A stretch of 64,000 bases of DNA from Exiguobacterium antarcticum DSM 14480 (lineage in GTDB: Bacteria; Bacillota; Bacilli; Exiguobacteriales; Exiguobacteriaceae), in assembly GCF_000685865.1 (NCBI RefSeq), contig NZ_JMKS01000003.1, positions 1,803,001 through 1,867,000 on the forward strand, read 5' to 3'. The notes under the pieces were generated by a model, which saw only the letters and a list, made by a program, of their open reading frames with translations, did no database searches and was not told where the DNA came from. This document shows positions 37,159 to 62,324 of the stretch, one piece after another. A program made the translations under genes and the position numbers. Each line of letters starts with the position of its first letter. Position 1 is the first letter of the stretch.

Positions 37159-37234
37159 TTTTTCAGGACATTTGTCCTTTTCAAAGGATAATAGAATGCG
37201 GTCTACTCATAATTAGAGAAAAAGGAGGATGAAG

Positions 37235-37663
37235 ATGCAAGGAATCATTTTTGCTTTATTCAGTGGACTGTTTATCGCACTGCAAGGCATCTTTAATGCC
37301 CGGCTCGGTGACGCGGTTGGTCCATGGTTATCCGTGACAATCGTCCACTTCGTTGGGTTAATCGGCTGTTTGTTGATTTATGGATTCGTCCGGGATCGGA
37401 AAATCGGTGGTTTTCGTACGTTGCCGCTTGTGTATGCAAGCGGCGGATTACTCGGCGTCCTAGTCGTCGTCACGGAACTGACGTCGATTCAACTGCTTGG
37501 GATGACATGGGCGATGTCGCTGTTGCTCGTCGCCCAGATCTTATGTGCCTTTGTAATTGATTTGAACGGCTGGTTTGGTGTCATTAAAAAAAGCAGTAAC
37601 AAAGGACAATGGATCGGTGTCGGCTTGATGTTGACCGGCGTCTTGATCTTTTCGCTCGCATGA
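37235..37663 (+). CDS. Small DMT-superfamily transporter subunit, YdcZ family (1)
   Basis: A 142-residue membrane protein with five hydrophobic segments and the family start IIFALFSGLFIALQGIFNARLG (DMT_YdcZ, formerly DUF606). AAAGGAGG at 37221-37228 is directly adjacent to ATG 37229, so ATG 37235 (6 nt away) is chosen. Its neighbour encodes a second half-size protein of the same family. The pair probably works as a heterodimer; the substrate is unknown. Confidence 0.85.
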   Translation: MQGIIFALFSGLFIALQGIFNARLGDAVGPWLSVTIVHFVGLIGCLLIYGFVRDRKIGGFRTLPLVYASGGLLGVLVVVTELTSIQLLGMTWAMSLLLVAQILCAFVIDLNGWFGVIKKSSNKGQWIGVGLMLTGVLIFSLA

Positions 37664-37686: not shown

Positions 37687-38166
37687 ATGGGGTTAGGAAT
37701 GTTTTGTGCCATCGTCGCAGGGATAATGATCAGTTTACAAACCGTTTTGAATGCACGGATGAGTCATGCCTTTGGCGCCTGGGCGACGACAACGTTAGTC
37801 TTTTTTGTCGGATTGCTCGGTTCGTTGCTCGCATTGGTCTTCTTTCGGGGCGGAACACTTGCGGCGCTTACAGAGGTCGAACCGCTTTATCTATTTGGTG
37901 GTTTCGTCGGAGTCGGTGTCGTGTTTTGTGTCATGCGGGGGATTCAACTGCTCGGACCGTCGATTGCGATTTCCGTCGTCTTGATTTCGCAACTCAGTTT
38001 TGCGCTGTGTGTCGACGTCTTTGGCTGGTTCGGTTTACCGAAAGTTGATTTGTCGTTTGGACAGATCATTGGATTGGTCGTCATGCTGAGCGGAATTTTC
38101 GTCTTGAAACGGTATCAAGTCGTGGATGAGGCGAAACAAATAGCCGACATCAAAGCGATTTCTTAA
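37687..38166 (+). CDS. Small DMT-superfamily transporter subunit, YdcZ family (2)
   Basis: A 159-residue paralogue of the preceding protein with the same opening pattern (IVAGIMISLQTVLNARMS) and five membrane segments, plus a charged C-terminal tail. AAGGAGG precedes the ATG, 23 bases after the first stop. Paired YdcZ genes are common in Bacillota and suggest a two-subunit exporter or carrier. Confidence 0.85.
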   Translation: MGLGMFCAIVAGIMISLQTVLNARMSHAFGAWATTTLVFFVGLLGSLLALVFFRGGTLAALTEVEPLYLFGGFVGVGVVFCVMRGIQLLGPSIAISVVLISQLSFALCVDVFGWFGLPKVDLSFGQIIGLVVMLSGIFVLKRYQVVDEAKQIADIKAIS

Positions 38167-38808: not shown

Positions 38809-38872
38809 GTCATCTCTCCCTTTCCCTTGGCTTCTTGAGCCGTAGTCCTGTCATTTCCGACAGCGAGAAAAC

Positions 38873-38908
38873 GAAAACGACTCCTCTGCTTGGTTGCAAA
38901 AGGAGTCG
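38873..38908 (-). terminator. Riboswitch-controlled terminator upstream of msrA
   Basis: On the minus strand GCGACTCCT pairs with AGGAGTCG, followed by TTTTCGTTTT. It sits directly after the SAM aptamer and would form when SAM is bound. Confidence 0.85.
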
Positions 38909-38912
38909 CCGC

Positions 38913-39014
38913 TTTTTATCAACCAAAGCTTTCGCTTTGCTGGTCGTAGCACCTTGCTGTGCGCAGGTTGCTGGGACGTCATCGATCCAGATCTCTCGGT
39001 CCACTCTTGATAAG
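38913..39014 (-). ncRNA. SAM-I (S-box) riboswitch controlling msrA
   Basis: The transcribed strand begins CTTATCAAGAG and continues through GATGACGTCC, CAGCAACC and AAGGTGCTACGACC. It closes with GATAAAAAG pairing to the start (P1). These are the conserved S-box blocks in order. A terminator follows, and msrA starts about 60 bases beyond it. Confidence 0.9.
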
Positions 39015-39054
39015 TGTTATATGAAGTTGATGTAAGTTCGTTATCATTGGGATG

Positions 39055-39084
39055 ATAATACCATTCATAAAAGTGGAAAGTCAA
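39055..39084 (-). promoter_or_regulatory. Promoter of the SAM riboswitch-msrA unit
   Basis: Minus strand -35 TTGACT (39084-39079), an 18-bp spacer and -10 TATTAT (39060-39055). It lies about 40 bases upstream of the aptamer and just after the stop of the M20 gene. Confidence 0.7.
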
Positions 39085-61911: not shown

Positions 61912-62011
61912 CTCTTATCTGTCAGCGTGTTAGCTGCAAGAATTAGCACCGTGCCAAATGGTCGGTTGCTGCGACATCGTAGGGCTCGTCCCTCCGTCTG
62001 CTCTTGATAAG
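61912..62011 (-). ncRNA. SAM-I (S-box) riboswitch controlling mtnWXBD
   Basis: The transcribed strand starts CTTATCAAGAG and contains CGGAGGGACGAGCCC. It continues with GCAGCAACCGACCATTTGG and CACGGTGCTAATTC and ends with the pairing GATAAGAG. All S-box core elements are present. Confidence 0.95.
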
Positions 62012-62042
62012 AATTGGATGAAATTGTGAAATATAATTGCAA

Positions 62043-62221: not shown

Positions 62222-62324
62222 CTCTTATCGTGAGTTGGCAGAGGGAATTGGCCCGAAGACGCCGCAGCAACCGACCATCCGGCACGGTGCTACATCCAAC
62301 AGACATTCGTCTGAGAGATAAGAG
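62222..62324 (+). ncRNA. SAM-I (S-box) riboswitch controlling mtnKA
   Basis: CTCTTATCGTGAG opens the P1 stem. GCAGAGGGAATTGGCCCGAA, GCAGCAACCGACCATCCGG and CACGGTGCTACATCC follow, and GAGATAAGAG closes P1. The core is almost the same as in the divergent mtnW aptamer. Confidence 0.95.

Follow-up and report, generated by a model that had tools for sequence, protein, structure and literature searches.

Methionine sulfoxide reductases are usually classed as enzymes of oxidative-stress repair. One of them, MsrA, reduces methionine-(S)-sulfoxide both as the free amino acid and bound in peptides. Methionine regulation in Gram-positive bacteria was reportedly surveyed by Rodionov and colleagues in 2004. 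As far as the available text of the papers cited here goes, the closest known case to the locus we describe is that of Shewanella, whose MetJ regulon includes msrA and where a methionine sulfoxide reductase also lies inside the methionine regulon of one taxonomic group (PMC4239095); there, however, a protein repressor acts at the DNA, in Proteobacteria, whereas the regulator here would be an RNA switch. The msrA-msrB genes of Bacillus subtilis, whose products belong to this family of enzymes in an order related to that of Exiguobacterium, differ in being placed under oxidative-stress control by Spx in the portion of PMC2885750 available. The S-box control of B. subtilis metNPQ involves the same signal, but there the signal governs uptake and here reduction (PMC3458967, in part); according to the title of a reference cited in that text, MetNPQ of B. 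subtilis imports methionine sulfoxide.

We found no link between a SAM riboswitch and msrA in the literature searched, supplementary tables aside, and the pairing may be listed somewhere. It is absent from the accessible portions of PMC4239095, PMC4342826, PMC2885750, PMC7438776, PMC3458967, PMC11477304, PMC2258182, PMC8066629, PMC7701990, PMC4409812 and the riboswitch-regulon survey PMC3766115. Here we describe such a pairing in a window of 64,000 nucleotides (the whole stretch of DNA analysed) from Exiguobacterium antarcticum DSM 14480. The msrA leader resembles known SAM-I riboswitches (RF00162) in having a full-length aptamer above the gathering score, an intact loop-J3/4 pseudoknot and a terminator with a complementary competing strand. 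It differs from them in its target, msrA alone, a pairing not met with in the parts of the literature searched. Both the riboswitch and the enzyme are of known and ordinary kinds; the novelty lies in their pairing, in its conservation and in its restriction to a family that appears to require methionine. We consider it likely that this riboswitch acts by attenuating the transcription of msrA alone, which would be induced at methionine shortage for the salvage of methionine sulfoxide.

The msrA transcription unit

The first-pass annotation of the window had recognised a complete S-box and terminator ahead of msrA, within an interval (38873-39014) that covers both elements, and the covariance-model search bears this out (Table 1). 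The encoded protein carries the MsrA active-site motif GGCFWC and has two cysteines only (C10 and C13). A terminator-like hairpin overlaps the msrA stop codon and the next sizeable ORFs, at 37687-38166 and 37229-37663, both lie on the opposite strand, so that the msrA unit looks monocistronic. The same annotation had called msrA the sole target of the switch. This holds for the transcription unit that the S-box itself precedes; it does not hold in the sense of a single S-box, since the window contains two more, at 62013-61912 (-) and 62222-62324 (+), and the genome 11 in total.

Table 1. Features of the msrA locus on the minus strand of the window.
Feature	Coordinates	Strand	Evidence
Sigma-A-type promoter	39055..39084	-	TTGACT 39084-39079, 18-nt spacer, TATTAT 39060-39055; consensus scan 10/12 matches (1.1 such sites expected by chance in the region, 2 found)
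SAM-I (S-box) riboswitch aptamer	38913..39016	-	RF00162 (Rfam covariance model) 59.4 bits (gathering score 44.4); E 3.1e-11 in a search of all 64 kb; full length, 39016-38913 on model positions 1-108
Predicted antiterminator 5' strand (P4 3' arm and P1 3' strand)	38913..38930	-	AGCUUUGGUUGAUAAAAA; duplex with 38902-38887, -13.5 kcal/mol, matched by 3 of 300 mononucleotide shuffles
Predicted antiterminator 3' strand (terminator 5' arm and loop)	38887..38902	-	CUUUUGCAACCAAGCA; duplex with 38930-38913
Intrinsic terminator	38868..38909	-	Hairpin 38909-38877, arms GCGACTCC...GGAGTCGT, -18.6 kcal/mol; T tract 38877-38868
Likely ribosome binding site	38814..38823	-	AAAGGGAGAG, read from sequence
msrA, peptide-methionine (S)-S-oxide reductase, 176 aa	38278..38808	-	Profile search: TIGR00401 198.9 bits (cut-off 108.1); PF01625 209 bits
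Terminator-like hairpin overlapping the msrA stop codon	38265..38284	-	Pattern scan

Conservation and specificity of the msrA S-box

We surveyed 38 genomes of the Exiguobacteriaceae, 19 from Exiguobacterium, the genus of the window, and the others from the second genus of the family. Of these, 37 contain a close match to msrA (E up to 1e-70). Using Rfam, we detected an S-box before the msrA orthologue in 18/18 cases in Exiguobacterium and 12/12 in the second genus. Seven further loci of the second genus all carried one at 88.9 to 94.7 bits according to a model, R1, which was trained on Exiguobacterium S-boxes and whose training had not included those seven leaders. Each of the 37 msrA leaders has a sigma-A-type promoter whose boxes are 18 nt apart, then the S-box and a terminator hairpin with a T-rich tail. 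A survey of leaders in related genomes had been proposed in the first-pass annotation as a check on the switch, and its outcome agrees: the complete arrangement recurs at every orthologue. The start codon is TTG at two of these loci (L076 and L086). Among the matches listed, a near relative by msrA is Exiguobacterium sp. RIT594, with 99% identity.

The surroundings of the switch differ between the genera. The gene upstream of the leader encodes an M20 peptidase in Exiguobacterium (in the genome of the window and at L021) and is, by eye, a short ORF in the second genus. The terminator sequence also differs by genus (CGACTCC...GGAGTCG versus CGCTCATG...), while a terminator is kept in each. Retention of the switch despite a different upstream gene and terminator sequence is the pattern expected from selection on the switch.

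The sole genome without an msrA orthologue (G005, Exiguobacterium, 2.7 Mb) also has no PF02574 match and carries seven S-boxes; scavenging genes may have been lost together in it. The number of S-boxes is 11 in 17 of the 19 Exiguobacterium genomes and nine in another (G007).

The association is specific to one of the MsrA copies. The genome of the window encodes three MsrA-domain genes, the S-box msrA and two genes for MsrAB fusions, in which PF01625 is joined to PF01641. Of the MsrA paralogues listed in the two genera we examined 25 places and detected an S-box at none of them, the MsrAB fusions of this genome included, nor at five family paralogues among the matches listed, two of which repeat places of the 25. 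One MsrAB paralogue just outside the window (L089, 940-2040) has, by eye, a hydrophobic N-terminus before the MsrA domain, and its product may be membrane-anchored or exported.

The association is also specific to the family. Among the best 80 msrA loci of named genomes that were listed, the one from Exiguobacterium has an S-box, and model R1 detected none upstream of msrA at the 79 others. The model may miss distant S-boxes at loci outside a set of 40 of the 79 that we rechecked with Rfam, in which no riboswitch directly precedes msrA. The sole S-box near any of the 79 lies about 1.1 kb downstream of msrA in Sporolactobacillus (L163); it was detected by R1 and precedes an ORF that resembles, by eye, a PLP enzyme of cysteine/methionine metabolism. 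In a second collection of 299 genomes, R1 found no S-box upstream of msrA in 85 regions from other families of Bacilli among the PMSR matches listed (25 and 60 further rows outside the family, taken in list order). The two sets total 164 loci and, coming from two collections, may overlap. The msrA S-box is present in both genera of the family and was not found before these 164 loci of other Bacilli, so on this distribution the family ancestor most likely acquired the link.

A possible relative of the msrA leader exists within the genome. The S-box nearest to that of msrA precedes an alpha/beta hydrolase gene and is 74% identical to it, whereas eight others are 50 to 63% identical; the metK S-box (L011) fell outside the alignment. 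For comparison, the msrA S-box of the window is 69 to 75% identical to six msrA S-boxes of the second genus. The 74% pairwise identity to the hydrolase S-box suggests a leader duplication. The hydrolase S-box (L009; G000:C3:1067141-1067243 +) lies ahead of a gene with PF12146 and PF12697 matches that is divergent from a MetN-type transporter gene, and such an esterase-like enzyme stands out as unusual among S-box targets.

Methionine supply and the proposed purpose of the switch

The wider S-box regulon was defined by the first gene behind each of the 11 S-boxes, assigned to its best profile family. Three of these genes encode ABC ATPases that match MetN best, each falling short of the strict cut-off for that family. 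One encodes a carrier resembling S-methylmethionine permeases (711.9 bits against a cut-off of 716), with a PF02574 gene of the homocysteine-methyltransferase family directly downstream, and another an NhaC-type carrier (PF03553; under the NCBIfam cut-off). The genes mtnW, mtnK and metK each score above the cut-off, and the alpha/beta hydrolase and msrA are further targets. The two other S-boxes of the window form a divergent pair, 61912-62013 (-) and 62222-62324 (+), that fronts mtnW and mtnK of methylthioribose salvage. Another S-box (L002; G000:C3:1318580-1318685 -) precedes a luciferase-like monooxygenase nearest to SfnG, a dimethylsulfone monooxygenase, below the cut-off, hinting at a possible use of another oxidised sulfur compound.

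We searched the same 38 genomes for methionine synthases. MetE (PF01717) was found in none of them, with a match in 10 of 14 control genomes for the same search. PF02574 occurs in 18 of the 38, each time in one frame of 320-329 aa. MetH also contains this domain, but these frames are too short for it, and no PF02574 protein of MetH size was found among the 38 genomes. PF02965 and PF04204 have no match in the genome of the window. The genome does encode one strong PF01053 PLP enzyme, so some interconversion of cysteine and methionine exists. Judged by these profile searches, the Exiguobacteriaceae appear to be without a methionine synthase and without de novo methionine synthesis. The part of PMC2615787 available reaches a similar conclusion for E. 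sibiricum, which appears to need methionine or methylthioribose, is unable to use sulfate and can convert methionine into cysteine. That portion also names a cobalamin-independent homocysteine S-methyltransferase in E. sibiricum, which we take to be the PF02574 protein. The missing synthases sit uneasily with the accessible text of PMC5399880, which places canonical met biosynthetic genes among the SAM-riboswitch targets of E. chiriqhucha.

With no synthase found and the S-box targets mostly given to uptake, salvage and metK, low SAM should mean a shortage that is met by scavenging. Methionine would serve such an organism as an amino acid, as the precursor of the methyl donor and perhaps as a sulfur source, and it makes sense as scavenging to switch on a methionine sulfoxide reductase when SAM falls. 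MsrA is thus probably made at methionine shortage and not under oxidative stress alone. Uptake and reduction of methionine sulfoxide may share one signal, given that MetNPQ of B. subtilis imports this compound and that MetN-type transporters are S-box-controlled here. The first-pass annotation had proposed that oxidised methionine is treated as a methionine source; the proposal draws support from the S-box at 37/37 orthologues, the specificity for one paralogue and one lineage, the failure to find MetE or a PF02574 protein of MetH size, and the targets in uptake, salvage and metK. Conservation of a SAM riboswitch before one MsrA copy out of three, where the family is seemingly incapable of making methionine, points to nutrient acquisition.

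On balance we lean towards a fuller reading. The stand-alone S-box MsrA would be nutritional, acting with the S-box transporters to turn environmental methionine sulfoxide into a source of methionine and possibly of sulfur, and the two MsrAB proteins would deal with oxidative damage. The switch would go back to a single gain in the ancestor of the family, probably through duplication of a leader from which the hydrolase S-box also descends.

The strongest competing explanation, which we hold to be unlikely, accepts the switch as real and gives it an antioxidant purpose: methionine would be a renewable oxidant scavenger, regenerated by an Msr cycle, and control by SAM would track the methionine pool. 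Precedents come from the available portions of several papers. In Streptococcus suis, Msr cycling is argued to be a peroxide defence and PerR controls metQIN (PMC3458967), MsrA and MsrB of B. subtilis are at least partly under Spx (PMC2885750), and Listeria msrA is among the oxidative-stress genes induced by sigma-B (PMC8066629). However, the sign of the expected response is wrong for such a role, as the enzyme would be wanted when oxidants rise and the S-box is expected to raise msrA when SAM falls. Furthermore, two MsrAB fusions without an S-box are left for stress. If the nutritional reading is right, the msrA case suggests that a riboswitch regulon can absorb a repair enzyme after the loss of biosynthesis. 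An S-box msrA and MsrAB paralogues in one organism also offer a clean comparison between starvation and peroxide.

Aptamer integrity and predicted switching

The proposed mechanism follows the layout of the leader. From the riboswitch family and the leader anatomy we infer that the RNA binds SAM, acts as an off-switch and alters msrA expression. When SAM is abundant, P1 would be stabilised and the strand at 38930-38913 kept in the aptamer, the terminator at 38909-38868 would fold, and transcription would end ahead of msrA. When SAM is scarce, the same strand would pair with 38902-38887 to form the antiterminator, and msrA would be transcribed. Low SAM would signal methionine shortage, and MsrA would return methionine-(S)-sulfoxide to the methionine pool, alongside systems that take up methionine, salvage methylthioribose and use S-methylmethionine, all answering to one signal. 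The computations show the aptamer, promoter and terminator, a complementary competing strand, the conservation, the specificity for paralogue and lineage and the missing synthase families; that the leader uses its antiterminator and that the switch serves nutrition are likewise inferences.

We compared the 19 distinct msrA aptamers of the family with the Rfam structure. The pseudoknot between the P2 loop and J3/4 (CUGG with CCAG) has 4/4 pairs in all 19; being invariant, these pairs give no covariation evidence. In the helices P1-P4, 82.8% of cells are paired, compared with a maximum of 42.5% after sliding one side, and P3 reaches 97.4%. P1 comprises five canonical pairs, and its outer three pairs are absent. 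The third P2b pair is missing in all four distinct Exiguobacterium sequences. P2a is 52.6% paired in the Exiguobacterium register, which fails in the second genus; one column over, 5/5 pairs form in all 15 distinct sequences of that genus. Two-sided changes between the genera affect one P1 pair and one P4 pair, and 306 of 500 shuffles reach two such pairs. The covariation score was 0.044 versus 0.024 and was reached by 1 of 500 shuffles. Covariation within the msrA aptamer set is thin. By score (59.4 bits), the msrA aptamer ranks tenth among the 11 S-boxes in the genome, above metK (57.2) and below the others (66.9 to 91.0), and it may respond at a different SAM level.

The competing strands are complementary to differing degrees. 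Their duplex has -13.4 to -13.5 kcal/mol in all 18 Exiguobacterium leaders (0 to 4 of 300 shuffles as good) and -13.1 kcal/mol in seven of the 19 leaders of the second genus (1 to 4 of 300); in the remaining 12 it has -10.0 to -11.0 kcal/mol (22 to 45 of 300). The complementary strand is thus clear in 25/37 leaders and weak in 12/37. We also folded the leaders without SAM ligand and without the pseudoknot. In transcripts cut before the 3' arm of the terminator, the antiterminator form lies below the ligand-free P1 form in 36 of 37 leaders, as expected of an antiterminator when no ligand is bound. The antiterminator belongs to the lowest-energy fold of 15 truncated leaders, all from the second genus (15/19); in the genus of the window it does so in 0/18, where its distance from the best fold is 1.0 to 4.5 kcal/mol. 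Of the 37 full leaders, 9 include P1 in their lowest-energy fold. On these models, antiterminator use in the msrA leader is plausible, with better support in the second genus than in Exiguobacterium. The minimum-energy folds also suggested a pairing of leader bases ahead of the aptamer with the P1 3' strand. We rejected it, because in 36/37 leaders the best such pairing was at chance level, being equalled by 97 to 290 of 300 shuffles of the 40 upstream bases; the exception was L076, with 24 of 300.

Taken on their own, the low score, the short P1, the P2b mismatch in Exiguobacterium and an antiterminator that is weak or non-optimal in many leaders would also fit a decayed aptamer with little or no SAM control, in which a leaky terminator sets msrA transcription at a fixed low level. 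We regard this as quite improbable, given that a full-model aptamer match and a terminator are kept in 37/37 leaders and that the pseudoknot is invariant in 19 distinct sequences from two genera with different terminators. It is less probable still that the terminated leader, expected to be about 180 nt long on the assumption of a start point some 7 nt beyond the -10 box, is the main product and acts in trans on other messages as Listeria SreA does, msrA control being secondary, because the leader precedes msrA in each of the 37 genomes with an orthologue.

Two short sequences stand out in the leader outside the predicted switch. A perfect inverted repeat, TTATCATCCCAATGATAA, at 39041-39058 overlaps the -10 region and the start of the msrA leader and is partly kept in Exiguobacterium. 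We considered TTATCATCCCAATGATAA as an operator and discarded it, since TTATCA-N6-TGATAA occurs once in the genome, equal to the reversed-control count, and none was seen in leaders of the second genus. Between promoter and aptamer, the string CA(T/C)CAACT(A/T)CATAT (39019-39032 in the window) is present in 35 of the 37 msrA leaders, spanning both genera, and the two others (L019 and L020) are one base off at its start. A similar string is also found ahead of the mtnK S-box (L008).
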